Origin: Henricia sp. BOLD:AAB3569
Lineage: Eukaryota > Echinodermata > Asteroidea > Spinulosida > Echinasteridae
Direction: 5' to 3'
Assembly: GCA_037783545.1 (NCBI GenBank)
Contig: JBBELK010000370.1
Location: forward strand, 682,001-746,000
DNA: 64,000 nucleotides
The translations under genes and the position numbers were made by a program. Below, piece by piece: positions 18,128 through 52,000 of this stretch. The notes beneath the pieces were generated by a model. The model ran no database searches, was not told the DNA's origin, and was given only the letters and a program-made list of their open reading frames with translations. The number at the start of each line of letters is the position of its first letter. The stretch's first letter is position 1.

Positions 18128-18192
18128 TGGTCTCGCTTGGCCAAGTTAGTGTATTTATAAGGGTATTTTGCCAGTGAGGATTGATGGCAAGC

Positions 18193-18336
18193 AGGGTTGT
18201 AGCCGAGTCCACAAGTCCAGTAACAAGAAGCAAAGGATGAACACTCACAAAAGAATGCCTTTGTTGGAGTTCATTTGAATAGCTTATGATTTGAATTAAG
18301 ACCCGGAGACTTGTGATGGACTCGACTAGAACCCTG
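18193..18336. repeat. Interspersed repeat GGTTGTAGCCGAGTCC...GGACTCGACTAGAACCC
   Basis: Inverted ends around CAGTAACAAGAAGCAAAGGA and TTGGAGTTCATTTGAATAGC. Same family as 5616-5800. Confidence 0.65.
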
Positions 18337-18571
18337 ATAGCAAGTTTAGTGGATGCTGAACAGGAAAGTTACATCAGTAAATTCGTTTTGGATAAATGTA
18401 CGGGTGTTTATTTGAACTTGACTGTTAATGTAATTAATGAGCAGGTGTCCTTTCCACTTATAAGATCAGTGGAACTTGCTCTCAAATTGATTTTATAGCA
18501 ACAGGTGATTTATTCAGTCAGGGTCGTACTCGTCAAGCAGGTTGTGATACTAAAATGGTGCTGATTGTGTC

Positions 18572-20110: not shown

Positions 20111-20245
20111 ATAGACCGTATCGAACAGCCGCCATTTCGTGGGGCACCTTTTATTACTTAAACCGTTCAACAATGGAAGCACAATATGTGCAACCATGCA
20201 TGTTCTCGAGGAACAAAGAAATGGCGGCTGTTCGATACGGTCTAT
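20111..20245. mobile_element. MITE, ATAGACCGTATCGAAC family
   Basis: Perfect inverted ends: ATAGACCGTATCGAACAGCC ... and its complement GGCTGTTCGATACGGTCTAT. 135 bp. Partial copies are at 35540-35647 and about 9059-9150. Confidence 0.9.
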
Positions 20246-20689
20246 AACCCTATGAACCGCCTGGCTCTTTGAGACTCGCGTAGAAATGCGAACATGTAAA
20301 GAAACCGTGGGTATTATTGATTGGGTAAACTGTCTTGTTACTGAAGCGTCTTCACTTGTTTGTTCACGTTGCTCCCATTTTCCAAACAATCTCAAGCGGT
20401 GGTGCTCGGTCCCACCGCTTGTACATGTATTTACCGCCCGTTTGCTAGTTCTCATTTACCCATTTTGTTTACTCTTGCTGGATTAAATCGGATTATTCAT
20501 GTTCAGTTTGGTGTTACTGTGGTTATTTTATCTCGTTGGTCACACTTTTCTAAAAGTCGTAATTTTATTCGACGAAGATATTGCAAGTTGTCGCCAAATT
20601 CTGAGACGGTGTTACCTTTCTCTTGTCTGTAATCTGCACATAGATGGCGCACTTGTTTCTGACCGCAACACACTAACCTCAATACACAT

Positions 20690-21022: not shown

Positions 21023-22270
21023 ACATGCCGAGGGCCTTTTGATTTTGTCCTTATAATTGAATACTAGCATTATTTTCAGTGAACGTGCAAAATAAAAACC
21101 ACAATTGCCTTGCATAACGTGACCGCTTATGCGATTCACAAAAATATTAAAAAGTCGGCGGTGAGTTGAAACTCGAAAGTTATTCTGCGCATGCGTTAAA
21201 CTTAGTTGCGGTTTATCAATCCGAATCTACCTATGCATGATGCGAAAATATCGCACGTCATATGCGCACTGTATGTATGCACTGCTGGGTGGTGTCCTGT
21301 ACGTACGAAAGACTCGTCGGGAGGATTTATCTGCAAAAAAATGGCTGTTTTCTTGAAAGGTAAGACCTTAATTGTTGCTAACCCATGAAATATTATGATA
21401 ACAGACACCAGTAGGTACTCGTACCCGAGTCTGGAGCTGTGTGATGGTTGCTAGGAGGAGAAAAACCTAGCAAAATTTTACCCGATTCACGTTGGCTTTG
21501 GGTCTTCGGCCCTTGCCTGCGCTATGCTAGTGCTACGGCTACGCGCTTTTGCATACGGCCACTTGCACGAGACCGCCACTTTTCTAGCATAATTTGTGGT
21601 TTTTTAACTTATACTCCCTTTCTTTGTGGTTGTACAAATTGTAGAGCAAGGAAACATAGTGCCGTTTCCTTGCTTGATGTACAATAATATGTGTGAATTT
21701 AGTCTGATAAATGAAATTGAAGGTGCACTGTACATTATCTGCATGCTATTGGCTATTGCATGCAAATTTGCAATGCAAGGTATTTTTTGCGTACGTCACT
21801 ATGTGTACCGGGTACATTGAACAAAGATTAGAATGAAATTACTTAATCAACAGATCATCCAATTCTAGGATATACTTCCCACTTGCACTTCTGTCGGGAA
21901 ATGTTGCATTTCTGAGATAAATAAATAACAATTAACATTACTGCATAAAGTAATGCACAAAATTACGGCGCGAGAGGTCCGTGCGCAAGCGCGACCACAG
22001 AGGGTGCTGTGCGCGTGCATGAATGATTATCTTGTGCACTACTGAATTCAATTTTTGAAGGAGAAAATGTGATTTTTCTACACGAAAACATTTGCGACAA
22101 AAGTGCAAGTGGGAAATATCTTAAAATTAGATTATCTGTTGATTCTATTATAACTAGGTAATTTCCTTTAAATCTTTGTTCAATGTATACGGAAAAATAA
22201 TCCAATACAAAAACACTTTCAGGGAGTACAAAATAAGAAAAGAAGAAAGAATTCCGTTTACTAGCACTAG

Positions 22271-22452
22271 CAGGTGGCCACTTATTCTCCTTGTTGAAAC
22301 TTGTATAGTGGCCACCCTCGGGACCATAAGAACTGGCCACTATAAACAGGTGGCCTCTTTATAGAGGTTGTTTAAGCAAATACAAATGGCATTTGGGACC
22401 AAATACGGGTGGCCACTATAAACAGGTGGCCTTAATAGCAGGTTTCACTGTA
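22271..22452. repeat. GTGGCCACTATAAACAGGTGGCC repeat
   Basis: Three GTGGCCACTATAAACAGG-type words, ending AATAGCAGGTTTCACTGTA. A related copy at 47717-47880 ends in the same words. Confidence 0.65.
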
Positions 22453-24811: not shown

Positions 24812-25000
24812 CATCTAAAGGCCTTTTCACACTTTGAACGTTCGACCCGTGTCGAAATCTACACGGTTCCACCCCGTGTAGACTTTTTAAAATTTCAACA
24901 CGGGTCCAATCGGCTACGTTTTCACACTACTAAAAGCAACACCGGCATTTTTTCTACACATGTAAGGTTTCCACCTGTGTATCGTGCAATTTCAGACGAA
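24812..25000. repeat. Element with TTTTCACACT ends and ACACGGGT words
   Basis: CCTTTTCACACTTTGAACG opens it. CCCGTGT, ACACGGT and ACACGGG recur inside, and GTTTTCACACTACTA occurs near 24920. The right border is unclear. Confidence 0.4.
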
Positions 25001-25744
25001 ATAAATTCACAGAATGATTAAGTACCGGTACCATTACCATCTTGATAACAAGTATTAGTAAGCTTAAAGATAATAATTCAGAATTTTTTTGGAGGGTAAA
25101 ATTACTAAACAAGTAGACTACCTTTAAAATGAGTCTTGTGAATTTGACAATTATGCGCTAAAAAAAACCAAAACCCAAGGCTTTTTTCGGTGCATTTGTA
25201 ATGACCAGCCACTGTTAACTCATTGCCTTGGCAACTGATCCACATTAGTCTGTTTTACAACCTTGAAAATAATGAAAGGGAATAGAGGACAAAGCAAAGG
25301 TGCTCATGAGTAATTCCTGGAATTAGGGGTCTCAAAGTGTGACATTTAAAAATGTGTTAAAATGAAGCTTTTTAGTTCTATACAAGTTTAGTACAGTGTC
25401 TGAATGTAACCATGGAGGAAGAAACATGATCCATGTGTACATGTACAATGTAACCCAAATCTGGTTGAACCATAAACCCACCAATGCATTTCCTGACAAG
25501 GCATGTTGCAAATAGGGTATTTATTGTGCAGGTAAAAATACTCCTTATTTGTAACACGATAGCAGATAAATCATTCACTATTCATAGAGAGCATAGCCTA
25601 CAGCCTAGGGAATATACTCTGCATTTTCTCTTATCATTGCGGCTTCTTTAAAAAGTTGAATTATAGACACGACCTGTATCGTTTTTATTACATGACAGTT
25701 TGAATGTACAGACTCAGAGAAGACAGTAATGGCTGTCAGATGGA

Positions 25745-25985
25745 GTTTTGACCTCATTTTTTTGGGAGGTTTTACTGAGAGATGGTAAAATTACAAATGG
25801 CTAAATTTTACTGCTGTCCGCATTTTGACTTCTTGACACAGTAACATTTTACAGAGACCGTGGGAGAGCATGCGCAGTGTCCGTTTGCAGGTTGCTCTTC
25901 ACTGCCCGGACTTACGCTTCTAGAGCGCTTTTACCGTCAATTTTCCTGGGCAGAAGTTGTCCAGGAAAAGTAACCACTGGAATAC
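25745..25985. repeat. Diverged relative of the 26573-27001 element
   Basis: Shares AATGGCTAAATT, TACTGCTGTCCGCATTT, GAGAGCATGCGCAGTGTCC and CCTGGGCAGAAGTT with 26660-26890 in the same order. Ends not resolved. Confidence 0.6.
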
Positions 25986-26572
25986 ATAGTTGAAAATGCA
26001 TGTAAACAATTGTAGTTTTTGTCCATTTTATTGATTGTCCCTCGCGCATAAAAACAACCTCTGCATAAAACTGTAAAGTCAATTTCAACATGTGATAAAC
26101 TGGGTGTGTGTATTAACATCAGTAGCAGGTAAACATACAGGTTCACTTTAGTTTTTGATTGTTGTATTGACTCAGGAAAGGCATTTGTCTCTTAACTTCC
26201 ATCCCTCACGTGAGGGACGGAATTAGATCACGCTCTAATTGTTATGCTAATAAAGATGACATCACATGCATAACTAAAAGCAAATGAGGCAAAGGCTATC
26301 CTTTTGAAACTGATAGTGTACTTTTATGGTTTTGCAAACAAAAACATACATATTATATCAAGATCATAATTCAGTTTGTACCACACAGCAACTGTAATCT
26401 AGTACTTGTCTATTTCGTAACAAGTGAATCATACCATGGAGGAAGTTCCTTCCTCTATGATCATACACACAATCATATTTCAAAACATCATTGATGATAA
26501 GGGCTCTGTGACCAAGTTTGATTCAGATACCATGTGATGTGATATGATCAGCTAGTCACAACCTTAACCATA

Positions 26573-27001
26573 TGTCGGCATTGGACTTGTTTTTTCGGGA
26601 GGTTTAGCCATTTTTAATTTTAACATCATCTTGGTAAAACCGTTTTACCAAGACGATGTTAAAATTAAAAATGGCTAAATTCTACTGCTGTCCGCATTTA
26701 GACTTTTTGACACAGTAAACTTTTACCGAGACCTTAGGAGAGCATGCGCAGTGTCCCTTCACAGTTCGACCTTCACGGCCCGGACATACGCTTCCAGACT
26801 GCTTTTACCGACTCGCTGTGTCCGCATTGGACTTTTCGTCTTGGAAAAAAGTTCCCTGGTAAATTTTCCTGGGCAGAAGTTAGCCAGGAAAGGTAACCGC
26901 TGGAGGAAAACTTCCAAGGCTGTCCGCGTTGGCCTTAAAATGGGAAAAGTACCCATTGTCTCGGTAAGTTTTCCCAATAAAAGTCCAATGCAGACAGGCC
27001 T
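26573..27001. mobile_element. Foldback element with GCATTGGACTT ends and a central palindrome
   Basis: The left end is TCGGCATTGGACTTG and the right end AAGTCCAATGCAGACAGG. GCATTGGACTT also occurs internally near 26823. A near-perfect palindrome with 38-bp arms fills 26603-26679. Confidence 0.65.
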
Positions 27002-27138
27002 TTATTGTCATCTGTTATCTGTTAAAAGCTGGAGGGAGAAATTACTCTAAATCATAATGAAAGTATTTTTTGGATCATCAAGTATTGACTCTTAAGATCA
27101 ATGTCAAGCATGCTGCAAGTTTTGTAGAAAGGTTATCT

Positions 27139-27625
27139 GGGGCCAATTTCATAAAACATGTTACGCTTAATCAAAAATTTTAATTAAGCATAGCACGAAT
27201 ATTCGCTCAAGCAAGGGCCTATTTCATAAAACTTGTTGTTCTAAGCGCGCGTAGAGAGTGCGCGCGCAACGCTGTCGTCTGTTTTGTTCGAACGCGTTCA
27301 TCGTCTGCTTTCATAAGTCAACGGCAACATTTTCAAAGTACCATCATTGGTTATGTTTCCATTTTGGGATGATTATCACTACCACAGATGACCCTTGCCT
27401 GTCGCTGACTGGAATATTTCAACAACAGCTGAAAGTTGGGAATCTGTTGGAAAATGTGTCTCGAATTTTGCCGAGAATGCCGAAGAAAAAAGATGGCGTC
27501 ACGTTAGCAAAAAATCGGTAGGTTAGCATGCCGTTTGGTTTGCTAGTGCTTAAACAGTTTTATGAAATGGAGAGAGCGCTGCTTAATCAAAATCGGGTGC
27601 TAACACGTTTTATGAAATTGGCCCC
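27139..27625. mobile_element. MITE, GGGGCCAATTTCATA family, long or nested copy
   Basis: GGGGCCAATTTCATAAAACA at the left and TTTTATGAAATTGGCCCC at the right. A second CCTATTTCATAAAACTTG lies inside, so one element is probably inserted in another. Confidence 0.7.
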
Positions 27626-27640
27626 ATTGACAAAGTGCTA

Positions 27641-27800
27641 ATAGACTGCCAAAGTGAATACGTCACCTTTTGTTGGTTGCCTAGGCAATTGGATCTAAAC
27701 TAAAAATCACTCAACCGTGTTCCAATGGTATTTTCCCCGACAGGCATGATAGTTTGGATCCAATTGCCATGGCAACGCACGTCACACTTCGGCTGTCTAT
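27641..27800. mobile_element. Imperfect inverted-repeat element
   Basis: AATAGACTGCCAAAGTG pairs with CACTTCGGCTGTCTATT, and GCCTAGGCAATTGGATC pairs with GGATCCAATTGCCATGGC. About 160 bp. Confidence 0.55.
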
Positions 27801-28978
27801 TGGAACAAACAACCGTGACCATCCACCATGTACATGAATATTGCGTTGCGACATCAAATATTTTTGGCAGTAGAAACACTCCGGAATGAATATTGGCTAT
27901 TTAGCCGATACTAATTCAGGATACTGATGCATGAGTAATGTCACTTGTGCACAGCCAATTTTTCTGATTAGAATGCATGAATTCCAAGCTAATGTAGTTA
28001 ACGAGTCACTTGTGGGCCTGTAAGATTATCTTCCTCGGTAAATGACTCGGAGGACATGATGCATGGAAGATAGGCCTACATCTGATGGTCATTCACAGTA
28101 TAGGGAAAGGTCATTGTCTTCCACATGATGTGCCAGGTAATACAGTTGAACCACGTTGAGAGGTCCTTGGGACTTTCCAGACGGCCTTGTTATAACAGGA
28201 ACCTTGTATTATCAGGAATGAAAACAATGCAGAATTTGTACATAACCTAAAATCTCCCTTTTTTTTTAACCTGCTCTTATAATATTATCGAAGTTTGACT
28301 GTACAGCTTTTTTATTCCAGTTGAATTCTAAGGACATAAAATTGTACAACTACAAGAAAGGACACAGCTTTGTTCCTGCCAAACCAAAGCTATTCATTTG
28401 AGGTTAGAAATTGTATGGTATTGATTGCTTTCGATGACGTAGAACATCCGGGAATGTGTGGTGGGCAACAGTCCGCCAATAGACGCACATGAACCTCCAT
28501 AAAAAATACTCGCCAGCGTATTTTCATTCAAAGATGCCGCACGCGGGCGTTGTGATACGTTTAAATTATTGAGCATGCACTCGGCTTGTAAAAACAAAAG
28601 CGCTTTTAGTTGATCACGATTTTTAGGCTGAAGAAATGCGTTTTTGTCTTTCTCGATACATAAAGCAAGGTTAAGCAACAAAGGTATCGTAAGTGCAACC
28701 AATGCGCTTTTCTTGCTCTTTTTGCCGGTTATTACTCGAGCCACTTGGGTCATGAAAAATGCCCACCAAAATGGTGGATGGAAGGGGTGACGTCACCGAA
28801 AAGCAATCAATAGCTTTTATCATGGTACGACCATCTTCATCTTGTTGCCCGTACATGTACGTGTCCAGCATACTGCGTGCCAGTGCATTAGTGTGTGTAA
28901 TATCTACCGTTGTTGTCAATATACTAAAAGAATCACTGTCCACGCTGTGTTTGCCCGATCGTGCTATGTGTGTGACAT

Positions 28979-29399
28979 TAGGTCTTTTCCCAATAGACAA
29001 ATTCTCAGAGGTGGCCCCGGGGCGAAACACCGGGGTGAAAATAAGCCCTGATTCCCACTTGCAAGTCTCACCCCCTGTGCTCCCCCCTGAGCCACCCCCG
29101 AGATTTATTATTCCCCGGGGCGAGTTTAACCCTGCTCGGGACCAGGGTTTAAAAATTTGGCCCTGGGGCGAGACACTTTCCCAGGAGCGAAAACGGTAGT
29201 GGGAAAAAGGGGCAAGGGATAGTTCTCACTTGTTCAAGTGAGGGATGAGGTGCCGATCTCTGGGGTGAGTTCGCCCCGGGGCGAGATTCAGAACAACAAG
29301 TGTGAATCGACGCGGGGTTGAATCCAGGGGTGAGTCACCCCGGGGTGGCCCCGGGGCGAGTTCACCCCGGGGTTTGATGTTCTAGTGAGAAAAGGCCTA
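28979..29399. mobile_element. Foldback element with amplified CCCCGGGGCGAG word
   Basis: The left end is TAGGTCTTTTCCCAATAG; the right end CTAGTGAGAAAAGGCCTA is its complement with three changes. GC-rich inside, with CCCCGGGGCGAG or CACCCCGGGG repeated many times. Related fragments are at 32689-32805 and 34523-34828. The long ORF across it is a by-product of the GC-rich repeat. Confidence 0.75.
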
Positions 29400-29860
29400 T
29401 TGTGATACACACACGACAATTTCAACACCGGACCTACATGTATTTTTCTGCAATTTCGCTTTCAATTATAATAAAAGAAAGGTCAATTGCATGCAACCAT
29501 TTCACATTCCACAGCATCAGATGCAAGAAAAAGGTCCAAGGACTAAAACAATTCACTCACCTCCCCCACATTCAAAACCTGATAACTCCAAGGGTCAATT
29601 TCTTCCCACACCCCCTTTGCCAAAACAACAGTGAAGGCCTTCATGTGCCAGTTGTGTATATTTGAGCCCATAATAAACATTGGTACTAGTTTCAAGGACA
29701 TTGACTCAAGAAATATTAGACCTTTCCCATAACTGTGGAAACCATCCCTGTGTGTCTGCCCATGGGGGATGCGGTCAGTGCATGAACTACTGTACATGCG
29801 TTATGCGATGATGCTCATTGTGTTGTTACTTCGAACAATTCGCGTGTTTGTTGTAATGGT

Positions 29861-30190
29861 GAATTCACACTGAGCCTTTACGCGCGTGCAGAATTGGGAC
29901 GCACGTCACTTTGGAAAGAAGCGATGAGGAGGGAATTTTGAGTGAAACGATGCACTGAAAATCACTGAATTATGAAGACTTTCTGTTCAACATGTCCTTA
30001 AGCTAATTATGTGGTTTTCGGTGCATTGTTTCGCCACCAAAATCCTTCCACAGAAATAGCTTGGACTGAAAGTGTTTTCACAATTTAGTGATTTTCAGTG
30101 CATCGTTTTACTCAAAATTCCTTCTACACTGCTTTTTCTCGAGGTGACGCGCGTGGCAATCACGCGCAAATCTGGCTAAGTGTGAATTTG
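29861..30190. mobile_element. Foldback element with GAATTCACACTGAGCC ends
   Basis: The right end GGCTAAGTGTGAATTT mirrors the left end. A second pair of arms (TTTGAGTGAAACGATGCACT and AGTGCATCGTTTTACTCAAA) lies inside. A diverged relative begins at 30915 (GATTCACACTTAGCC). Confidence 0.75.
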
Positions 30191-30914
30191 TGTGTGCGAA
30201 GAGCGCATTGCGCATGCATGGATGCGCAAAACGCACAGTCGATGCACTGGAAAAAGCTGCATCCCAGCTATGGCGGACGTGTACAGGTAATGCGTCCTGG
30301 TAAAGGTTAGATAGTAATTGCCTCTGTGACACTATACATGGCTCACCAAAATTGTGAAATGATGATGGAAATTTGTTGGTTTTTACAGGTAAATTCACAC
30401 TTCATTTCATAATTTATACATGTACATGTATGTATACTGTGTACTTATAATATAATTACTGAAAGCGAAAGAAAATGTAATTTGAAACAAGCAAAAACTG
30501 TTCACTTCAAAACATGTTTTTCAAAAGTAATCTTTCTGTGTGGACATGTACTTCCTGCAAAAATGTTGGCTCTACGTGACTGGATGGTTGATCGATAATG
30601 AAAGACCTGTACATGTATAGGCCGGGTGCGTACTGCATAGGTGTGAATGTAACGTTATCGGTCGTTCCACTGGAACAAACTGTGTTATGCAGCATGGCTG
30701 GAACCACTGTACATGTAGTTGGTAGTGCAGTAATCAAACCTGGCCATGCCCAGGGCATAGGGTGTTTTGATTTCAGAAAGACCTATTGTACATGAATTGT
30801 GTTTCTTTTTATAGAGGATTTCTGGACTAGTGAGGGTGTTGTTTATTTTAGTTGCCTGGAATCTGTTCAGGTGTGATTTCATGTCCTTTCTCTTTCAGTT
30901 TTGGGTTTTGACAT

Positions 30915-31100
30915 GATTCACACTTAGCCTTTCGTGCGTAAATGTGACGTGCATTGCTTTAAGAAAAAGCATTGTGGATGGAATTTGGAGTGATACGACG
31001 CATTGAAAATCACAGAATCAACAGGGCAGAAGGTATTTTTTGTGATTCTGTAGTTTTTAGTGCATTATTTCACTCCAAATTCCCTCCTTTTTCTCAAAGC
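30915..31100. repeat. Diverged relative of the 29861-30190 element
   Basis: Left end GATTCACACTTAGCC; inner arms GGAATTTGGAGTGATACGAC and TTATTTCACTCCAAATTCC. Right end not found. Confidence 0.5.
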
Positions 31101-31249
31101 GATGCCAGTCAAAATTATGCACAAAATAAATAATTGTCAATCCACCATAACGGGAGAGGGTGGGGGAAGGAGAACTATGGAATTACCATAATTATGACCT
31201 TTGATGTTTAAAATACACACATAAAAAACTTGGGATGAGAGAAAAATCG

Positions 31250-31712
31250 TAAGGGCTTTCTCGGGATTCGAACCTGAGACCTCCGACTCACCGAGCAGAT
31301 CTACCAGCTGAGCTACAGTATGAGGCAAAGTGGTATACTCCCTCAGATTTTCCCCAAGACCTCTGACACACTGGGCAGATGCTCTACCAGCTGAGCTATA
31401 AGGCACAGTGGTATACTCCCTCAGGTTTTCCCAAGACCTTTGACACTCCAGGCAGATGCTCTACCAGCTGAGCTATAAGGCACAGTGGTATATATAGTTT
31501 TTCCCAAGACCTCCGACACTCCAGGCAGATGCTCTACCAGCTGAGCTATGAGGCACAGTGGTATACTCCCTCAGGTTTTTCCCAAGACCTCTGACACTCC
31601 AGGCAGATGCTCTACCAGCTGAGCTATGAGGCACAGTGGTATACTCCCTCGGGTTTTTCCCAAGACCTCCGACACTCCAGGCAGATGCTCTACTAGCTGA
31701 GCTATGACCCCA
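31250..31712 (-). repeat. tRNA-derived head and tandem array of 77-80-bp units
   Basis: On the minus strand 31257-31317 reads GTAGCTCAGCTGGTAGATC ... CAGGTTCGAATCCCG, with tRNA A and B boxes. It is followed on the + strand by about five units of CAGATGCTCTACCAGCTGAG plus AGGCACAGTGGTATACTCCC. Reading frames through the array give repeated SSAGRAS peptides with no protein meaning. Further arrays are at 43690-43830 and 46320-46635. Confidence 0.8.
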
Positions 31713-32688
31713 AATTGCGTTCGACACATAAAAAGGGAAATTAGTTTGGATAATTACTGTAGGTTTGCAGTATCTTTCTGGATATTTTCAGTTGAGGCAA
31801 CATCAATCATCTAATGTTAAAATAAGAAGCTAGGCTTGTGTAGTCCAGAAAGGGCCAAAGAGGCCTACGTGTTTACGGTACGTTTGCGTACAATGTATAG
31901 TATGGTACAGAGACCCTTAAGTTGTCAGGTGCAAACGCTGCATACGTTTAAATAATCAATTCTATTTTCAGACGAGCTGAAAACCCCTTTCATTGTAGAC
32001 TACCTATAGAACGACCGTCAGTCTATAACTGCAAGTTTTGCTTAGGGCTATGTTTTCGTCGGAAGAAGTTCCACTGACACACTAACCTGCCTTGAGCAAT
32101 TAACGCTCCTATTTATTTTAGCATGATTATATCTTATGGTGAATACATGTAGCAGTAGGAGAATTTAAAGGGCATGAAACACTAAATAACTTTATGCGCA
32201 GTCTTTGCTGCATATGAGGGATTATTTGTTTTTTAAGGTTAAATAAATTAAACGTAGCTTTTCAATTTTTAAAATTTCTTCACGGAAAGAGGGCCTTGTT
32301 TATAGCATGTCACTTTAGGAACACACAAGAGAAGTGTATGACCTACTCCAAGTAAAACATTTAAATGCAAAACTCCAACTTTAACAATGAACTCCACCAA
32401 ACATCCATTTTATGGAAACTGAAGGTTGGAGAAGTGATCTCCGTTCTCTGACACAGGAAGATGGTCAGTTTGATTACAAACGTCTGCGTGCATGAGTAAA
32501 CCAGGAAATGGTGGGTTCAAATCCCACAACAGGATGTCTGAGGAAACATTCATCATTACTCCTGGCATGGAATGCTGCATGGTGGGCCAGGGTGAAATCT
32601 AACTGTGCCAAAATAGGCAAATGGTGATTGTTTTAAAATTGAAACATTTTACTTTTTCAGTTTTAAGGGTACATGTACCACTAATTTC

Positions 32689-32805
32689 ACATTAGAAGGG
32701 GGGTGCGGGGCTGGGTAGTCACCCCTGGGCGGCCCCGAAACATCACCCCTGGGCGGCCCAGGGGCAAACCCGAGGGATGGTTGTTCTAGTGGGAAAATGC
32801 TTTAT
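32689..32805. repeat. Fragment of the CCCCGGGG-type foldback family
   Basis: CACCCCTGGGCGGCCC occurs twice and the right end GTTCTAGTGGGAAAATG matches that of 28979-29399. Confidence 0.5.
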
Positions 32806-32839
32806 AGTACAACACCAAAATACACACTTTAAAAGGCAT

Positions 32840-33489
32840 AAGGCGCGTTCCCATTGGACTTCTTTTTACGCGCCCTCGCGGGAACTTTCCGCGACACCCT
32901 GTAAACATTCCTTCCTGTAAATCTCCCGTGCGTTCCTACTAACATATATTTTACACGACGCGAGCGGAAAATTTAGCTATTTGGCTGGCCATATGTGGTC
33001 AATTGAGGGCGTAGTTTACATAACCTTTGACCTAACAGGAGTTTCGTTTTCAGGAAACCCAATCAAATTTCGAACAACTTCTATTAAACTTGCCATTATA
33101 TTTGCGAAGAAATGAGCATGAAAAAAACACGTGCGTACGTACGTACATGGCATGTACAGTACATAATAACGGAACAAGAATTTTCGCGCAATGTGTGGTG
33201 GGATTGCACAATGCAGGAAGTGACGTCATCCATTTGGCATTTTACACAGCGGTAGCGGTAGTTCTACAGGGCGGCGCTGTTCCCATTGGCTTTTTCGAGG
33301 GCCCTGTAAAACTCCCGCGGCTGAGCGGAAAGTTTCCGCGGACTCTTTTACCCTGTAAGTTTTACATCGTGGTCGCGGTAACTTTACAGGGACGCTAATT
33401 CTCCGTGCGTCCCCATTGGACTAAATTTTGCTACTCTCCCGCACAACCACGGGAGTTTAACCAAAAATAGTCCAATGGGAACACCACTT
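32840..33489. mobile_element. Foldback element with CGTTCCCATTGGACT ends
   Basis: The left end AAGGCGCGTTCCCATTGGAC and the right end GTCCAATGGGAACACCACTT are inverted repeats. Versions of TCCCATTGG and of CCGCGG and CCTGTAA words recur inside. About 650 bp. Confidence 0.75.
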
Positions 33490-33909
33490 TAGCCTACTGG
33501 TACAGGTCTACAAGTGTACAGGTACAGGTACATGTACCCACCACCAGGGACAAATTCTGCATTTCCTTTGACAAATGAGAATAATAATATCCTTATTGTT
33601 AGACAGGAAACCACAAGGGTCATGCTGTGGGGACACCTTGGGTGGTATTTTGCAAGTCTAAAAAGCAACACTGTAGTATTGTAGGCCCTACCCATTTTAA
33701 TGCCTTGTGTATAGTGATTCATAAAAGAAAAATGTAGTTACCAAATCTTTTAAAAGGCTCAGACAAGTTTGGGTTTTTTGTGGTGTTAATTATATTAAAT
33801 AAACCATGTACCTGTAGGCCTGTGTACATGTACATGTACCCGCAAGGTCAATGGTTTTTCTTTCTTTTTTCTTAAAAAAATAATTTCATTTTGTTTGAAG
33901 TCTAATGCC

Positions 33910-34493
33910 TTGGTCACACCTTTGCGTATATTGTTGCGTATTGCTGCGCTATGCGGGGTATATCAATACGCAGCCGTACCCAACAATACGCGGCAAATTT
34001 GAAGGTAGCAGTCACACTATTGCGTATGCCTACGGTTGCCTATGGCCACGCTATAGCTCGCTTTTGCTCATAGCAGTACGATTCAATACGCAGTTTGCTC
34101 GCCTCGTTGCGTATGTAGCTCGTTCTTTGTTCGTTTGCTGCTCGCTAGCCGCTCGCACCAGTTGGTCTCATTGCGTCTCACTGCGTGTTTCCTCGCTTTA
34201 GCTCGTCTGTAGTTCGTACTGCTGCGTGCTAGCTCGCTGTACGGCTTAGTCACTCGCTGTTGCTCGCATTCACTGGTTGCCACTTGATCCGCTCGTAGGC
34301 GAATTGACCTTGCGATTGCTTGCGATAGTTTTAAAACTAGCGAGCGACTAGCGCAGGCCTATGCGCTAGTCTGCGTATTGAGTACGTACATGTAGTGAGC
34401 ACGTTTCATTGCGCTTTATTGGGTATGACTGCCTATGTCTGCGTTAGGGCAATATGCAGCATCACGCAAGCCAAATACGCAAAGGTGTGACCC
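33910..34493. mobile_element. Foldback element with GGTCACACCTTTGCGTA ends and amplified TGCGTA/GCTCG words
   Basis: The 17-bp ends (33912-33928 and 34476-34492) are perfect inverted repeats. Inside, TTGCGTA, ATACGC and GCTCGC recur dozens of times in both orientations. About 584 bp. Confidence 0.85.
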
Positions 34494-34522
34494 TCGCATA
34501 ACTGTGGTCAACAAAAGAGGTC

Positions 34523-34828
34523 TCATTAGACCAGTAGTGTGAAATGGTGTGGGCGTTGAGTTCGCCCCGGGGGCGAGCAATGACGAAGGTCACTTAAAAG
34601 CGCGCTAAGTTCGATTTGCGTGAAGACCATAATAAAAGCGCAACATGAACGCATACTTTTTAATTGCATGTATATCCATGCTACAGTACATACGATGGCA
34701 AAACAGTTTTCAACACGTGCGATTCTGTCTTTGGAGTTTCATTGCCCAGTCAAAAATTGCGCGTCGCCCCGGGGTGGCCCAGGGGCGAGTTCGCCTCGGA
34801 GTTTGACGTTCTAGTGGGAAAAGGCCTA
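34523..34828. repeat. Fragment of the CCCCGGGG-type foldback family
   Basis: Has TTCGCCCCGGGGGCGAG near the left and the right end CTAGTGGGAAAAGGCCTA as in 28979-29399. The left terminal repeat is not clear. Confidence 0.5.
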
Positions 34829-35539
34829 TAGCGTAGTATCTGACAGTAGCTACGGTACCTGTGTCCAACATGATTATAATTTGCAAATTTTCTATTCAGT
34901 TGTTATAATGCAGACCTGTACCCTACCGTTGTAGGCCTACTGTAATCACTAGTTCTGTGACCTGTCATAAGAAACACTGCATAAATGCATGAGCTACCGT
35001 ACTACTGTCAACGCGATAGTCAGAATCTATCATTCCCATTCCGAGTAGTGGTGACTGAAATTGCTCTACAGTCTGGGAGAGAGAATCCTCTTCAAGTGGG
35101 CATCTGTAACTTGACACCCAACGAGATGACCGGACGGTCTCTTGATAGTCGCTTTAAGCTCGTGAGTCATTGTGATATCATTGGATGAATAGGGGAATTC
35201 TGAGCCGGTGTTGACCCCAGTCCGAATTTAGAGCATATTGTGATGGATTGTACAGAAATGAAAAGTAATTTAATCACTTTAAATTTCACAGAAAAGTTGA
35301 AAACTAAAGATATACAAACAATTCTTGGCTTGCTTGACCCATGGCAACAAAATACTGTGTTATACCGAAGTACAGTGCTTGAAGAACATTTCACATCCAT
35401 TTTGATTAATTTTGACTGAACATATTTGTGAAGAAAATTTGTTTACTTCTTTTGTTGCTCGTTATAAAAATGTAGACCAAATTTAAATGTTTACCAAATT
35501 TAATCAGTACTTGTGTTTTTCCCTGTACACTGGTACTTG

Positions 35540-35647
35540 GTAGGGCACCTTTTATTACTTAAACTGTTCAACAATGGAAGCACAATATGTGCAACCAAAA
35601 AACAAAGAAACTGCCCCACGAAATGGCGGCTATTCGATACGGTCCAT
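35540..35647. mobile_element. Truncated MITE, ATAGACCGTATCGAAC family
   Basis: GGGCACCTTTTATTACTTAA to GGCGGCTATTCGATACGGTC matches 20111-20245. The left inverted end is missing. Confidence 0.75.
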
Positions 35648-37132
35648 ACATTCTCTTTAATGCCTACATTACCATACATGTACCGGGGTATGTCATGGGA
35701 ATTGGTGAACTTGTGATGCTTGCAGTCTATCATGCCCAGCGAGACCCATTATCACCCGAACATGACCAATGTACAGTATGTACTGTTGCGGAAATCCCAT
35801 GGGAAGCATTGACATTTTGGCATCCAGTGGCACAAATAGAAGGAGGAAAGTATTTCCGGTTCTTGTGTACAAGGATGTGGAATTCCGAGCGAGAAAGCAG
35901 ACAGCAGACTGTGCATTTAGACATGCAGACTTTGTGTATTATTAATTACTATAGACACCACTGTAACCAACATTCTGCTATAATGTTCGTTATGAATTTT
36001 GTAGTACATTTTTCTAGAAAATTCAATGATTTTTGCAAAAGCTTTTTACATACGGTACACGGTATCGATGTGCTATAATTTAAAGCAATTTTCTGCACAA
36101 AATATACATACATGTAGACTTCCAAATGTTAAAGCCATGTCCACCTCTTCAATATGGAAGTGCCCAAAATCATAGTTTTAATTTGGCTAAAAACATAATT
36201 TCCTTGGCAGAAATGAAAAGAATTTAAATGAGAGAAATTGTTGCCTGTAAACAGGAACAGATTACATACTGAAAACAGGGGTCGATTTGGACAAAAAAAA
36301 GTTTGCATACACAAATGTGATTTTTTCTTGAAAATTGGCTGAATTTTGCATGCACAGATGAAATTTTACATAAATATGTAAATATGCTCTAAATCGACCA
36401 CTGACTGAAAACCGTCAACGACTAGCTGGATTTAGTTTAACTTATATAGAAAATGCACGCATTTTGTCTTGGGACAGAATGTTGACGTGTACGAGCACGT
36501 ACTGTAACCTGCCGTGTGTACATTTAGTTTACTTCCATGCGCATCAGTCATTCCACGGTATAAACTCGGCTTTCAGCGACCACTTGATTTTCAGCAAATG
36601 GAGCTCACGTTGAGAGCAATTTTTATCAGCGCACCAGGGTTGGACTTGGCCCCTTTAGGCTTTTCTGATGAGTAACAAAGACTTTTGTAATTAGTCAGAG
36701 TAGAGGAGGGATTGAGGTGGAGTCGGCGAGGCGACGCTTTCTGCGACGGGAACCAATCATCGATCAAGCCTTGGCCGTCTTGGCCGGGGCTGTTGGCTGA
36801 TCCATCTGAACTGTTACGCGACATCATAATGACATACTGGGCCGACTGGTTCTATATACCATGTCATTTGAAAAACTTGGAGTTTGCACTAAGAAATGTT
36901 CATGTAATTGAGCTTTCAAATGAATGATGCCGTGCATACTCATCACAGTGAAATTTTTAAATATATTATTCCTCTGTCACAAAAAGTATGTCTTGATACT
37001 TGTCAAACTTAGATACATTGGGTTAAAAATGCTGTTAACTCGAAACATGAATCATTTCCCATCAAAGTTTTAACCAAGCTTACTTGTATCTCTGCGTAAA
37101 GTGTTAGGTATAAACTGTTCATCTCATGGAAG

Positions 37133-37462
37133 CGCGTGTGGTCTAGTGGGTATGAAGCGGGACTCCCAATGAATCAGAGGTTGGGGGTTCGAGCCCCACT
37201 TCGACCAACGTGTCTGTGTCCCTGGGCAAGGCACTTAATCCCAGTTGCCTCGTCAACCCAAGCGATATATGGGAAGCTGTTAAGGGGAATGCCACAATCT
37301 AACTGCTGATAGGGTTGTGCGCCTGGCCAGCAGCCACCTAGTTGAAGCGAAATGGTTCTGGTGATTCTCTGATGGCAGCGGTAATAATGGTAACAGCGCC
37401 TTGAGCACCCTGCAGGGTGGATATGTGCGCTATACAAATCTAATCATTATTATTATTATTAT
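37133..37462 (+). mobile_element. tRNA-derived SINE with Deu-like core and ATT tail
   Basis: The head GTGTGGTCTAGTGGGTATGA is A-box-like and GGGGGTTCGAGCCCCAC is B-box-like. A central part CCCTGGGCAAGGCACTTAAT follows, then a CR1/L2-type tail GCGCTATACAAATCTAATC and (ATT)n. The combination is typical of deuterostome SINEs. Confidence 0.8.
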
Positions 37463-38853
37463 CTCAGTTAATTCATCAAAAACGGCTTTGAGCAAAGTGG
37501 TGGGTACATAGTGTAAGTGCTTTGGGTTTTTATCCTATGTATGGTAAGGTTCTCAGTACAAGTTCAATGAAATAATGCAAAAACAAACTGTAATGGTAGT
37601 TGACAAAATACATGCATAGTCAGTTTAGTTTGAAAATTCATCTACATGTATGTATACATGTATGTGGACTAAACCGTAACATTGAAAGTGAAATGGAAAC
37701 AGCCAAGTCCTTGTGAACGTGTTTACCTACCGGTACATGTAATGGAACAGGATTTGAGAGATTAAAGTTAGTTTTTAGGAACTGAAAGATCATTGTTTAT
37801 GTGCACAGTGTGTATGTGGTAAGATTGTGCATGTTTAATTTCATTTTGTTCAATTAATTGACAGACTACTAGAGTGTGATATCAGTTGCCAGGTTAAATT
37901 GTATGGGTGCCTACCGGTATGCCCTCTGTAGTACACTACCCTATCTTGTATAATGGGGATCTCTTTCCTCCAGGCACCTTTATGCCTCATTGGTGTCCCA
38001 GCTACCGCTAGATTCCTTCAAAGTGCCTCCGTCTCCTCAGTTACTGTCTTGGAAGTTGTTGAAACAGCCTGTGAGCATGCATGTCAGTCAACATCGTTAG
38101 TCATGGTTGGTAATGTGGGTTGGCGGAGCTTAAGTTATGAGAGGAGTGTTGAATAGGCCTTCTATGTACATGTACATGTACATGTACCTCTCTGAAGTTG
38201 ATTAAAATTCATTCTAATTTGGAAAGCGGAATTGCAATTTTGTCTTTTGGAGGAATCGTTTAATTACTGAAAGGTACTTTATATGCAGAAAATAAGGTAA
38301 TATAAATAATTTTCATTACAAACATAGAAAAAGGAAATCGGTGACCAATATTTTTTTCCTGTGACTTCAAAGGAAAATAAGTCATGATAAATACTCGGCA
38401 ACACTGCAGGAAAAAGTTCAATTTAAATACAGTGTACATTTCATACTAATTAATTATTACTTCGGTCTGGTAGAATCCATATGTATGCCAAAGCCACATG
38501 TACATGTACATGTAATGTAAAGAAACACATTGCGCTTTTAAGCTACAGTATGTTGTTTATGAAGTCAAGGTTGTAAACACACAAAATGGATGCACAGTGG
38601 AGCAGACAAAATAAACCATGTACATTATCAAAACAATTAATCTAGCTACACAGACTTTGATCTCTGGTCTTGTGTCAAGTCTTCTTCGTGTTGTCTTGAC
38701 CACAGTGTTGACTTTAGTTCCTGTTACTACTGCATGTTCTGCTGATTAGATAAATGTGATTCCAGTTTTAGCATCTCTTCTGGATAAAGTCAGACGACAT
38801 TTTATTTGTTGTCATTAAACAGTATTGTTTTTTATTGCTGATTAAAAGTCTAT

Positions 38854-39216
38854 TGTATCATTTGCAATGACCCAATTTTGTTTTTCATGAGTTGACAAGA
38901 AAAACCTTACTCAAAGCGTTGATAGCAATGGTAACAAACACCACAATAATTTATTTCCCTCCAAAATGGTATTTCATGCTGGAAATTGACAACCGAAGGT
39001 GGTTTTCTAAAAAAAAGTCTCGTGCACAAGACTTTTTTACCATTCACTTTTACACAAAATCCTATATAGATTTCAAGGTTTTCTAAAGCATTGATGCATC
39101 TAAGTACATGTAGCTAAAATTTCTTCAGGCTAGTTTACCAACATTCTTCCTTAGATACCGGTATGTTACACTCTTATTCCACGAATCTTTAAAAAGTTTT
39201 ATCTTGCAAATGATAC
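38854..39216. mobile_element. Non-autonomous element with TGTATCATTTGCAA ends
   Basis: Begins TGTATCATTTGCAATGACCC and ends TTGCAAATGATACA. A close copy lies at 57178-57494. Fragments of the left end recur at about 3250 and 39235. The internal ORF is not protein-like. Confidence 0.8.
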
Positions 39217-40463
39217 AGTAGGGCTTTTAAAGGTCTATTGTATCATTTGCATTGGCCAAATTCATGAGTTCACAAGAAAAAAAACCTTCTTTAAAGTGTT
39301 CATACATGTAGCAATGGTAAAAACTGTTTTCTGTTCAAAACTGAAGATACTGGTACTAGTTCATTTACTTGACATGTACTTTGGTGTCCATCTTGAAGTA
39401 ATAGAGCACGCTTTGTGTTTCGGTCACTAGATCGCGACCACCGATGCATGCAAGTCGTACTGCTAACACATCCCATCTGTTTCTTGTGTTATTCAACAGA
39501 CCTCCTTTTGACACCCAAGAAAATGACTTTGTAAACAAACTCAATAGGTGTGACATGAGTTTCCTTTGCAGAAGATTGCATCGTATTGATGTTTTCAAAG
39601 TCTTAGTTTCTTTATGGTCAAAATCTAATGTTCGACACACACAAATAAAAAAAAAAATGAAAAAGGGGTAGTACTGTATAATGTAAATTTTGTTTGTTTG
39701 TTGTAGCTCTGCTTTGTTTATGTCCAAAAACTCTGATTTGCACAATAGTATTTTATAACTTATTGTGACTACAGAGCAATCTTTTTACAGGTTTTTTTGA
39801 CAATTTTGTGCAAAAACATTAGAAGGAAAGGTTTACCTGCATTTTCCAACAAATTTTTATTTAAAAATGAAAACAATTTTCATCTGCACACATTTGTTAT
39901 TATAACAGTTTTTCCTGTGAAACTCATGAAAACTTAGCTCACTCGCATGGTGTTGTCATAAACTGATGGCTCAAGATACAGATGTTATTTGAAACTGAAA
40001 AAAACTATTGCAGCTTGCATGCTGTGTCATCGTGTTTTCATTAGGCCTAGTGCTGAAAGAAGATATCTCTCTTCAAGTCTTTTGGTTCCTCCAGCAAATT
40101 CTTTTGAAAGATTGGATATGTTTCTCCACCCCATAGGGTCGCTTGAACCACCACCCCCCCTCCCCCTTTGAAAATTGTAAACTGAGACAGTCAGTCTGAA
40201 TTGGGTTAAAATATCAGACGGGTAATAATAAATATGGAGCCGAATGTAATAGATACATCAAATCGTCAACAACCAGGCCAGTACAAAGTGGGGATCATAC
40301 TGGAATCTTTAATCAAGAAAACATGATACCCAAACCATTTTGACTGCTATTTTGGCAGGATTTATTAAAAATCATGTTTTTCCACCGCCCTAGTTAGAAC
40401 TGTACATGTATGTATACTTAAATATGTTTTTACATGCATGTGTACTGTATACTGTACATGTAG

Positions 40464-40676
40464 CAAGGTTGTAGTCGAGTCCATCAAAAGTCTATCACAA
40501 GTCCAGAGCCGATAAAATCTTAAATCCGTGACAAATCCCGCACAAGTCCATGACAAGTCCAGTAACAAGAAGCAAAGGATGAACATGCACAAAATAATGT
40601 CTCAGTTGGAGTTCATTTGAATACCGGTAGCTTGTGACTTGAATTAAGACCCAGGGACTTGTAAAGACTTGTGAAG
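40464..40676. repeat. Interspersed repeat GGTTGTAGTCGAGTCC family
   Basis: AAGGTTGTAGTCGAGTCC, CAGTAACAAGAAGCAAAGGA and GACTTGAATTAAGACCC are shared with 18193-18336. Confidence 0.65.
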
Positions 40677-41454
40677 TTAACCACTGGTTTCAGTCTATAA
40701 ACATGATAAAAAGGGTCCCCGTTATTTCTCTTGTTCTAATATTGTATTGATCCCTCTTTACACTGTACATTTATGAACTTTTCAAATGTAGGAGGAAGTA
40801 CATGTACATGTAGGCCTACATGAACATATAATATGTAGAATTAAAATGGTATTTTGCCGACTTCCTTTTGGATGATACAGTACTGTAAATGATATACCTG
40901 TTTATAGTGTAACTTGTACAGTGTACGGTACATGTATGTACCGCAACACACCTGATCTACTGAATAAAATGCTGCAGGAAATACATATACGTAGACCTAG
41001 TTTTTGTTTGCTTACTGTTTGCTTACATATGAAACTTGCAAAACTTCTAACCCTGCATGCATCTACATAATTTCTCATATTATTTTTCTTTCCTTTTCGT
41101 ACATGTACAGTATGTACTGTAAGTTGATTTTCACTATTTTCTATTTGCATGAGGAAAATATCACATTTCTCAACTGTCTTCATTTAATTGCGAGGGTGGT
41201 AAAATGAAAGAGGATGTTCTCTTGATCAAAACTGAAATCCTAAACAGATGCCTTTGATATTCGTGTTTACATGTATGTACAATGTAGGCGTGATGTCCAT
41301 GTGTGATTTCATATTACATAAAATATAGGTACCGGTACCGGTACATTAGATTCACAAGATATCTTTTTAGAGTTTAATAATAATTGAAAGTGAATTTATA
41401 TGTGCGCACACATTTTTTTACAAGGATGCCCTCATGTGAAAGAAACTGTATGTA

Positions 41455-41900
41455 AGACATGTTTACACTGAGCTCGGGATCAATATTGATCCCCTGATAA
41501 GAATGTGTCAGTGTTAACCGCAATGATCCTGAGTGCCGCGTTTACATTCTGTAGTTGATCCCGAGCGCAGTGCCAGAAGTTGCAGTCAAAGGTCATGCTC
41601 TATGTACTGATCAATGTGTGCATGGGTTGTGCAAGTACAGTGTACAAGGCCACTTGAATTTCGAGGGCTTTTCCCCCGCTATGGCTGTGGAGTGGATGCG
41701 GTAAAGATAAATTGCTTATCTAACCGCAAACTGATCCCGAGCTCGGGATCGAACCCTCCGCCAACACGAGACCAAAATCTTGGGGTCTGATCCGGGGCCA
41801 ATTTGGTCCTGAGAGTGTTTACACTCAGTTTGTGATCCGGGGCTGATCCCGAGCTCGGTGTTCGACCCCGAGCTCGGGATTAAGTGTTATGTAAATAGGG
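41455..41900. mobile_element. Foldback element with amplified GATCCCGAGCTCGGGATC word
   Basis: GTTTACACTGAGCTCGGGAT opens it. TGATCCCGAGCTCGG and relatives occur at least eight times in both orientations, and GTGTTTACACTCAG is repeated near 41815. The right end lies near CCGAGCTCGGGATTAAGTG. End pairing is imperfect. Confidence 0.6.
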
Positions 41901-42401
41901 TGTGAATTGTGTAGAATCCTTTACATGTACATGAAGGCCTGTCCACATACATGCACTTATTCCAAGGACAGTAAAATATCAGCAATAAGTGAAAAAATAT
42001 CAGTAGAATGCCTTTATGTAATTATTGATTTCAAGAGGAAATTTACAGGGGTTTTTTTGGTACTCATGTTGTACTCATACTACATACATGTAAATGTACA
42101 ATTGTTAATCCATTACTACAGAAACGTTTTGTGGGTACCGGTACTGTACTTCTTAATTTGGCGTCCATGTACAGTAGCATCAGTATTTATGGAAGTCATG
42201 CAGATTTTGAATTGGTATGGTATTTTTGGTGCTGATGTGTAGAAATTGCCTCTTTGTTTCTTAACCAGCAACATATAGGCTAACTAAAATTGGAAAAGAA
42301 AAAGAAAAATACCACTTTTGAAATTTTGACACCAATGTCGCACTTTTCGCCCCAACTTTGTGGAGAGACCCATGACGTGTACATGTATCTGTACAGTTGT
42401 A

Positions 42402-49000: not shown

Positions 49001-52000
49001 TGGGGTCCTAAGAACATGCATGTTTGTATTAATATTTACAGAACAAATGGCTGCACATTGCACGGATGTCGGGTTTTATTCCAAGAAAGTAAATGTTTGA
49101 TTTTGCATCATTTCAGAATCGTGTTGTCGGTCAGAATCCCCAAGAAAGGAACTACCACATCTTCTACTGTCTGCTGGCTGGGGGCTCTGATGAACTTAAG
49201 AGTAAGTAGGGATAGCTTAAATTTTAGTTGATAATCTGTTGACAATTTCGCAGTGTAATTAAAGCCTGGTTTCCATATCATCGCAACAAACACAGAGATC
49301 ACCGCAAACTAGCAACGCAAACAGTAATGCAGACAGTCGACAAAGTTGAACCAAGTTTAACTTTGCTGATCGTTTCCGTCAGTATTTGCGTTGCAGTTGT
49401 TTGCATCTAGTCTGCATGCACAAGTTACGATTATATAAAAACTAGGCTTTATTTACACTGTGCGTGCCACAGTGTGCTCGGGTTGGTCTTGATCCTGTAG
49501 CATCTTGCATTTGAAACTGGACGTCTTGACCGCTGAACTACAGATCTGCAGGCAGGGGGAGGAGGTGTTTTGTCAAAGAGGACATGTTTCCCCTTTGCAA
49601 TGACCAATCATGTCGTAAGAAGCTACATGTAGGATGTCATGAAAAACGCCCAAACACAATAATGAGCAGATATCAGGCTCCAGATTGGGGGAAGGGGTGT
49701 TGGGATGTCAAGCAAATTAGAAATGTCATGTCATTAAGTTACCCAAATATGATGATCAAACCTTGGGCAATAAGCCTGGAGCTGTCAAACAGACTTCAGT
49801 AGTACTTAAGTAGTGGGTACTGCAACATATCGAGGATGGCTTACATTGTGTTGATACATGGATACATTTTAATCATAAATTGTTCGTACTTTGCTGATGT
49901 ATTTTTTTGTACTACATGTACATGTATATATGTATTTCTCCTGTTTACAGAGAAACTGTACCTGAAAGATCCCTCGTCCTACCGCTATATGAACCGCAGT
50001 GGTTGTATATCAGACCCAACCATCAATGACAAGGAAAACTTCCAGGCTGTTTTGGTAAGCTCACTCAATTCACAACAACACCTGTTTTGGTTTATTAACA
50101 GATTTCTATCGTTACTTCAGCCACAAAACTGATCATTGTATCAAAGGAAAAGTGGGGTTACAGTCCCCTGGAATCCAATGTATTCCTGTATTTTAATGAG
50201 GCTGGATCCGCCACTGGAAAGACGTTTTTGGAACCAATTCTGGAAGATCATTAAAATGCAAAATACAATAGAAATTCTGGGGTGGTACCTACATATACTC
50301 TCCAACAAAAGAAACTGTGCATGGTAAAAATTGCTGTATTTTTTCAAGAAGGTGGAAAATAAACACCAAATTCCCAGACAATATTCTCTGACATTGTTAG
50401 AAAAAGGTTATGCACTCAAAACCTGCTCATGGCATAGTGCAGGACTTAGGCATGCCTGGGTGTTGATTTCACAATAGGGGTCCTACAGGTTGTTATGTAA
50501 CAGAATTCCATAAAGTTCAGGTCTTGTTAGCAAGCCGTACAAAAGGACTACCCAAAAGTCAATATTCTCTTTCATGCGCGTGTCATTGGCTCCATGAGGC
50601 GAAGATGCACAGCAGTGATTAATGCACAAGGGGGACACACTCGATACTGACTTTGTGACTTCAATATTGGCAAGTCAGTTTTCAGCAACCTCTGAGAACA
50701 CGAAGAACACATTTTGTACATTTCAAGTTCGGTTAACCATTTGAAAGATTTCATGGACTTTCATTAACAGTTTATTCCAGCGAGTTATCTGCCATGGCTG
50801 AAAAAAATACAGCAATTTTTATCATGCACAGTTTCTTTTGTTGGAGAGTATATCACTCATATTTTCACATTTTTCCGCCGCTGAATTATGGTTATGGTCA
50901 TGAAAATTCAGCCTAGACTGTGCATCATCCAACTCATTTTGCCAGAATGGGTTTCTTATTACGATTATTGATGTAATGTTTCCCCTTTTGTTTATCAGGA
51001 TGCCTTCAGTGTATTGCAAATCAACCAGGAACAGATCAATGACATTCTCTCTCTCCTGTCGGCCATCTTGAATATTGGTAACATCCAATTCATCACAGCG
51101 GGAGGCGCTCAAGTCAAGGACATGCAACGTAAGTACCTATTGGTTTTAGAATCTGATGCTAAAATTGCATTTCCAATGTATGTCCATGCATTAGAGAACC
51201 ATGGCCGAGCGGTTGGGGTCATTGACATCAGTAGTCTTGTACCCAGACCTGCTGGGGAAGCTCGCTCAACAGGTCTAGTCAGTAAATTAGCCTATTGCCA
51301 AATTAACCAGGGGCCAATTTCATAAAGCCGTTTAGCAGAAGAATTTGCTTAATCCAAAATTTGTTTGCTTTATAAAATGGGTTTTCAGTCAAAATCTTAG
51401 ATGATGTGCAATACAATTGACTGGTGTTCTGCTATTCTTGCTAAAAACACTAGTTGACATACAATTTTGACTATTAACCAATTTTTATAAAGCAGACAAA
51501 TTCTTTTGCTAAACAGCTTTATGAAATTCGCCCCAGGCCTGTTGGGCAAGCATCCCCAGCAAGTCTGGGTACGAGACTATTATATCAGGTGGAAACGCCT
51601 TTAAAGGTTGTGGGTTCTAAACCACTCGAGGTTTAAGTGCATTCCAATTGCTTCATTGAACAAGGGGAGCATTCACAGTACAATTTCGCTTTGTCAAATA
51701 AAATGATTTATTTTGCTTCAAACAAAGAGATTCTAATCTTCATCGAATGAAGACGTGTGTTCAGAACAGAGAGCAGGGGTAATAATGACCGGGGTAATAA
51801 TGCTGTAAAGTGCCACGAGTACCTTACTTGGAAGATATGTACCGTACGTTATAGAAAATGTCGCAATAGGAATGAGGAACAATTGCAATATCGTGTTTGG
51901 AGACCACCGGCTAGCTTCATAGCTCAATTGATAGACCGTCTACACGTTAAGCAGTATGTCCGCAGTTCGAATCCCGGTGGAGCCAAGTTGCTTTTCACTG

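Follow-up and report, generated by a model that had tools for sequence, protein, structure and literature searches.

The zebrafish transposon Harbinger3_DR carries a 9-bp subterminal motif that is recognized by a Myb-like protein (PMC9710019), and the Herves transposase likewise binds a repeated subterminal motif (PMC3143072). In PIF elements of Medicago, subterminal repeats may cover nearly the whole element, and the plant-type terminal inverted repeat (TIR) is characterized by the motif G(N)5GTT (PMC2213677). The present analysis concerns a 64 000-nucleotide stretch of the Henricia sp. genome (C370:682001-746000, referred to as the window, within a 740.7-Mb genome of 2104 contigs). A preliminary description had grouped at least eight foldback-like elements of this window by a common TTYNCAYT-like end word, followed inwards by a 'private' word amplified within each element. 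The core of this set is likely composed of non-autonomous PIF/Harbinger-type (PHIS) miniature inverted-repeat transposable elements (MITEs), in which the private words are subterminal arrays. The core comprises the elements at 28980, 24817, 33906 and 11335 and probably those at 41458 and 49261, the last two being placed by resemblance of their ends or target-site duplications (TSDs) only (Table 1).

End words and private words were counted in the window and compared with shuffled sequence (dinucleotide shuffles for the end words). TTYNCACT occurred 49 times (30.1 expected) and formed 16 inward-facing pairs 100–1000 bp apart (3.2 expected), and the looser TTYNCAYT formed 50 pairs (22.2 expected); the pair counts take in internal words as well as element ends. 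The common end word pairs inwards beyond chance. Amplification of a private word was borne out for most of the elements: 7-mers occurring at least three times exceeded all 500 shuffles at 11342, 41461, 28979, 33912, 32846 and 6187, a weak excess was found at 29861 (p = 0.004), and 24812 had 20 repeated-7-mer pairs against 3.0 in shuffles (maximum 11), above all 300 of them. It was not borne out at 49268, where no 7-mer reaches three occurrences, or at 30915 (16 repeated-7-mer pairs against 8.8 shuffled, shuffle maximum 26). A mirrored right end for 24812 was looked for within the window and was not found. By eye, ACCCGGGTTGAA and ACACGGGT look like variants of one theme. In genome copies the common end reaches outwards past the TTYNCACT-type word, as AGGCC-TTTTCACACT and CACCCCG-TTTACACT; within the window, GCC lies upstream of the end word at 5/13 of the earlier-listed ends and at 7/106 others (Fisher p 0.004), a comparison that the genome copies supersede.

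Copies of the ends were counted in the whole genome using reversed patterns as controls. The 17-bp end AAAGGCCTTTTCACACT of the AGGCC group has 144 exact copies (control 0). The corresponding counts are 155 versus 0 for GGCCTTTTCYCACTAGAAC (28980 family), 965 versus 0 for CGTTTACACTCGATTCG (11335 family), 1814 versus 2 for GTTCCCATTGGACTT (32840 family), 11 versus 0, with four mirrored pairs, for GGTCACACCTTTGCGTA (33906 family) and 6 versus 0 for GTTTACACTGAGCTCGG (41458 family). From the listed AAAGGCCTTTTCACACT places (fewer than 144), 88 stretches were drawn and 87 were used, L144 lying inside L151. The sample held 85 distinct starts, 48 of them with a mirrored end at a distance of at most 1.5 kb and with no more than 2/14 mismatches. 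The same end precedes various inner sequences (84 distinct 60-mers in nine single-linkage clusters, the two largest with 38 and 37 members). In L131 and L132 copies of AAAGGCCTTTTCACACT recur in one orientation every 3–4 kb, so that these stretches sit in tandem duplications; L132 also carries a C-type-lectin-like open reading frame (ORF), as judged by eye.

The triplets immediately outside AGGCC...GGCCT were identical in 20 of the 48 mirrored copies (shuffled mean 11.7, maximum 19). This 48-row table holds two loci from both strands plus several related copies; with related rows removed, 15/34 triplets agree (shuffled mean 7.8, p 0.00015), and shifting both boundaries by one or two bases leaves none in agreement. 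A left T is paired with a right TAA in 9/22 copies and a left A with a right AAA in 6/11, and the two are never crossed. Two of the three left flank letters of AGGCC-group copies, which show TAA or AAA triplets, were set by the search word, and it is for this reason that the left/right pairing is the telling fact. In the window, 3-bp TSDs are present at 11335, 28980, 33906 and 49261, with boundaries chosen with the flanks known. The 33906 family has a second copy at C164, flanked by TTA/TTA.

An alternative is that several unrelated transposon superfamilies are present, their common end words being convergent or due to chance and their arrays having arisen independently in each. Word amplification is also shown by a region whose ends are hAT-like, by the 6191 element with its CTTAA flanks and by two of three CWG-type GGGCCAATTTCATAAA elements, so that common descent cannot be read from the design by itself. 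The elements at 32840 and 29862 have no clear TSD, and multiple binding sites are termed a convergent trait in PMC3573991. However, a 17-bp end is exactly common to many copies despite their differing inner sequences, 3-bp TSDs are found both in the four window elements and in the genome sample, and a full-length relative (see below) joins this end type to a PIF-type transposase. Unrelated superfamilies are accordingly considered improbable. A single unnamed superfamily for the whole set was also rejected.

End words are reiterated inside the elements, with 66 internal occurrences against 7.9 expected (30 rows, two loci counted from both strands). This could reflect replication or repair (slippage or abortive gap repair) that copies end words inwards, the arrays then being by-products without a binding role. 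Element length differs among AAAGGCCTTTTCACACT copies, and in PIF elements of Medicago the number of subterminal repeats has been connected with abortive gap repair (PMC2213677). On the other hand, the full-length relative has its array only in the 178 bp at either end, and there are arrays in several of the families, in keeping with a retained function. By-products of repair seem to us a rather unlikely explanation; it is about origin more than use, and can be compatible with the PIF/Harbinger reading.

For two of the window insertions, the genome also contains the site without the element. At C340:1119250-1119790, a second copy of the locus lacks 11335-11818, with flanks 97% and 93% identical; GCCTCCTAAACTTTGCC runs uninterrupted there, in the place where the window has the 484-bp element and 3 bp, and the outer element 11062-12038 is kept without the nested one. 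For 28980-29398, the site minus the element and one ATT was matched at 330 places with at most three mismatches (control 2; best one mismatch, none exact), places that are known by their matched letters only. The element therefore sits in a repeat whose other copies run uninterrupted at this point. L178–L180 were discarded as 11335 empty sites, the flanks of the outer element not being seen by eye. Part of the window is present a second time, in inverted orientation, at C340:1089976-1119790, where the ends of 41458, 33906 and 34520 follow one another as they do in the window. This second copy could represent either the other haplotype or a duplicate, and it helps in presence/absence comparison with the window.

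That non-mobile low-complexity or structure-prone DNA has been taken for elements is extremely improbable. Part of the window is comparably repetitive (22–28% of its positions match 49268, 30915 and 6187 in this respect), but copies that have defined ends and TSDs occur across the genome, empty sites exist, the 11335 empty site was read together with its flanks, and rejoined-site matches were found for 28980. The earlier proposal of a mobile group with a word amplified per family is thus upheld by one end with several inner sequences, by 3-bp TSDs and by empty sites, but the set is not one group.

A Myb/SANT-like ORF remnant is present in MITE copies with the AAAGGCCTTTTCACACT end (AAAGGCC group), for example in L144 and L102. 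The L144 remnant by itself gave no match in Pfam. Searching the genome with the Myb-like remnant gave 99 matches; among the fetched stretches, 12 places other than that of the query itself were matched by tblastn below 1e-3. These matches pointed to C1742, which has a transposase match 5 kb from the Myb-like one. The 7.7-kb two-ORF element identified there (C1742:24277-31966) has the ends AGCCCTTTTCACACT and AGCCCCTTTCACACT, of the AGCCC-(T/C)TTTCACACT type. One ORF encodes a DDE_Tnp_4 transposase (PF13359, E 1.3e-33) and the second, convergent ORF a Myb/SANT-like protein (Myb_DNA-bind_4, PF13837, E 1.5e-21). All ten copies of CCCGGG lie within 178 bp of an end, and CCCGGG is found 10–16 bp after 5/6 subterminal end words versus 0/3 interior ones. 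Since this array is confined to the ends, the private words are most simply read as subterminal arrays of a two-protein PIF/Harbinger-type element. Judged by its sequence, the C1742 element ties the TTYNCACT-type end to a two-ORF element of this type, and the pattern, for which the preliminary description offered no named family, is not that of an unnamed kind of element.

Profile searches of the genome gave at least 151 matches to PF13359 (150 of 606 candidates scored) and at least 49 to PF13837. Among the matches listed, a transposase and a Myb-like match face each other within ∼5.2 kb in C1742, C899, C127, C715, C570 and C104 (by eye); C154 is perhaps a further two-ORF place. At C666:1009468-1013658, mirrored TTGCGTA-family ends lie 4191 bp apart; this stretch is a candidate full-length partner of 33906-34498. 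Of the PF13837 matches listed, and of those listed for the C1742 transposase, none falls in it, distant relatives being incompletely listed in both.

Several observations weigh against the PIF/Harbinger assignment. No mirrored end accompanies 37/85 of the AAAGGCCTTTTCACACT starts, and the triplets differ in 28/48 mirrored copies (19/34 without related rows). Exact 3-bp TSDs were sought at 32840, 29862 and 27140 and none was found. The TSD of PIF/Harbinger elements is typically TWA, to which TAA and TTA in the 33906 family conform but from which ATT at 28980 and CGA at 11335 depart. CGA stands twice in the window versus CTA (or TAA) in the empty C340 copy, so that the exact 11335 target letters are uncertain, and the empty-site pattern of this element was matched 14 times (control 7), with only C340 borne out by its flanks. 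The C1742 flanks are unlike (TGT/TAT, two of three letters agreeing) and its private word, CCCGGGAA, belongs to no window family; among the stretches read there is no full-length copy that combines the end and the word of a window family. Among the matches listed, no transposase place lies within 10 kb of a AAAGGCCTTTTCACACT place (by eye). Finally, a fixed unit of end word plus private word is unsupported in the MITEs, repeated 6-mers after their internal end words being barely above random positions (0.257 versus 0.240).

Under the PIF/Harbinger reading, a parent element would have a short conserved end used by the cut-and-paste machinery, bordered on the inner side at both termini by an array that is made up of a family-specific word, often a palindrome, and of end-word repeats. 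Its two proteins would be a DDE transposase and a DNA-binding protein of the Myb/SANT-like type. Loss of the coding middle would join both arrays, giving a short copy that resembles a foldback patch full of one private word, and such copies would be mobilized in trans by the two proteins with duplication of 3 bp of target. By analogy, we infer that the private word may be the binding site of the family's Myb-like protein (or of the transposase), that arrays may be retained because a large number of sites improves recruitment of the machinery, and that words may diverge through joint change of protein and word. The arrays could grow by slippage or by abortive gap repair. We suggest, tentatively and as somewhat less than an even chance, a two-part address code in which the conserved end serves the transposase and a fast-evolving, exchangeable array word serves the matching Myb-like protein, producing many mutually insulated families. 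If so, the PIF/Harbinger families of one genome would differ mainly in the word and the Myb domain. The system is ordinary in kind and unusually clear as an example. The assignment would account for a striking feature of an animal genome, its GC-rich foldback-like patches, and one end type with differing private words, one full-length relative and hundreds of copies forms a natural series for testing self-recognition by two-protein transposons and for studying how DNA-binding specificity diversifies.

Table 1. Elements mapped in the window
Position	Element	Ends	Private word	TSD or flanks	Remarks
6191..6717	Outsider	TIR CAGTAGRGGACCAA	CTCAATYGAGCG	flanks CTTAA/CTTAA	
11062..12038	Outer element	TTATACAGGGTSGATA			Host of nested 11335-11818; copy without nested element known
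11335..11818	Nested element	CACGCCGTTTACACT / CACCGCGTTTACACT	CGATTCGCC	CGA/CGA	484 bp
18192..18336		CAGGGTTGTAG		8-bp flanks ATGGCAAG/ATAGCAAG	Flanks agree 7/8
24817..24965	Truncated copy	left AAAGGCCTTTTCACACT	ACACGGGT		+ strand; right limit approximate
26566..27004	Element absent from preliminary list	right AAAGGCCTGTCTGCATTGGACTT			Left end decayed
27140..27624	GGGCCAATTTCATAAA element			flanks CTG/CAT	Exact TSD absent
28980..29398	Element	AGGYCTTTTCYCA	CCCCGGGGCGAG	ATT/ATT	
29862..30188	Hairpin-like element	AATTCACACTKAGCC		TG only	
30915..31142	Truncated relative of 29862-30188				
32680..32806	Decayed relative of 28980-29398	right GCATTTTCCCACTAGAACA			Limits approximate
32840..33489	Element	GTTCCCATTGGACT			Exact TSD absent at called boundary
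33906..34498	Element	TGCCTTGG/TGCGAGGG-TCACACCTTTGCGTA	TTGCGTA	TAA/TAA	
34520..34827	Third copy of 28980-29398 family	right AGGCCTTTTCCCACTAGAAC			Left limit approximate
41458..41902	Element	decayed in window	GAGCTCGGGATC		Two genome copies start CACCCTGTTTACACTGAGCTCGG
49261..49450	Short element	AAAGCCTRGTTTYYAT		ATT/ATT	No 7-mer three times
51311..51533	GGGCCAATTTCATAAA element			CAG/CAG	Word repetition p = 0.074, not significant
52745..52949	GGGCCAATTTCATAAA element			CTG/CTG	

The preliminary description had lumped in the outsider at 6191 and the nested composite at 11062-12038, and the element at 29861 has a truncated relative at 30915. The outsider had been listed at 6187 as having an amplified word but not clearly the end word; its 7-mers exceed all shuffles, its ends are CAGTAGRGGACC and its flanks are CTTAA. 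The stretch 11066-12034 consists of the nested element, to which GTTTACACT is restricted, and of an outer element whose ∼160-bp arms start TTATACAGGGT; the ends of the outer element are presumably mariner-like. The ends at 18192..18336 we take to be hAT-like; ACTTGTG is repeated across 18192-18842, but not inside 18192-18336 alone. Patches at 7545-7680 and 8360-8470 (CAGTGTTGTAGTACT..., with GACTCGAGTC / GACTTGAGTC words in both orientations) are also presumed to be hAT-like. A further two-ended GGGCCAATTTCATAAA copy lies near 2098-2301. Mirrored TATAGACC... ends at 20110-20246 and 18883-19181 represent a further MITE-like type, and GGTGGCCACTATA / AGGTGGCCTTTTGACCA repeats occur at 22267-22440 and 47784-47859. 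Tandem arrays of ∼78-bp units with tRNA-like words (CTCTACCAGCTGAGCTAT) at 31319-31707 and 46343-46638 are perhaps derived from short interspersed nuclear elements. The window has one tRNA, on which the tRNA and Rfam searches agree, and contains myosin-X exons; by our own reading, KH-domain exons resembling IGF2BP may also be present. Pattern scans of the viral_contigs collection with three ends (0, 3 and 1 stretches) and of the genome_contigs collection with GGCCAATTTCATAAARC (78 stretches) were taken as chance matches and were not used.

hAT elements generate 8-bp TSDs, and the P superfamily, to which Galileo belongs, has a P-type transposase and TSDs of 7–8 bp. The core has 3-bp TSDs and a linked DDE_Tnp_4 transposase, and hAT and P-type origins were rejected for it on TSD length and transposase; only 18192-18336 approaches an 8-bp duplication. 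The families of this set were not found in print in a literature search, Repbase being outside its reach. Foldback/Galileo elements likewise have long, internally repetitive inverted ends whose repeats have been proposed as secondary transposase sites, but Galileo is classed with P elements, unlike the core (PMC3573991). Coral CMITEs are, as here, several MITE families of a single animal genome that have one part in common and differ in another; there, however, the interior is common, the TIRs differ, the TSD is TTAA and the elements are piggyBac-like, whereas here the ends are common and the interior differs (PMC2872659). The Medicago PIF element MtPH-A6-4 also carries subterminal repeats; it is a plant element with tandem 60-bp units bearing an AAACNNCTTATT motif, whereas here short palindromes are dispersed in many families (PMC2213677). 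By eye, G(N)5GTT is not in AGGCCTTTTCACACT, and near forms are seen in GGCGCGTTCCC and GCCTGGTTT. The closest likeness is to PIF/Harbinger (PHIS) and Tourist-like MITEs, with which DDE_Tnp_4, a Myb/SANT-like second ORF, a 3-bp TSD and MITE derivatives are common (PMC4482050, PMC2836001 and PMC9710019). As in PHIS elements, the AGGCC-group TIR starts with A or G; unlike typical PHIS elements as described in these sources, the TSD is not strictly TWA (ATT, CGA and AAA also occur) and several families share a TTYNCACT-type end with arrays of GC-rich, often palindromic words. Within PHIS, NuwaI combines a CWG TSD with a GGG start, as do 51311 and 52745 (two of the three two-ended copies tested, CAG/CAG and CTG/CTG, the third having CTG/CAT), and Pangu combines an ANT TSD with an AG/GG start, as does 28980 (ATT, AGGYC), both likenesses being of TSD and end alone (PMC4482050).

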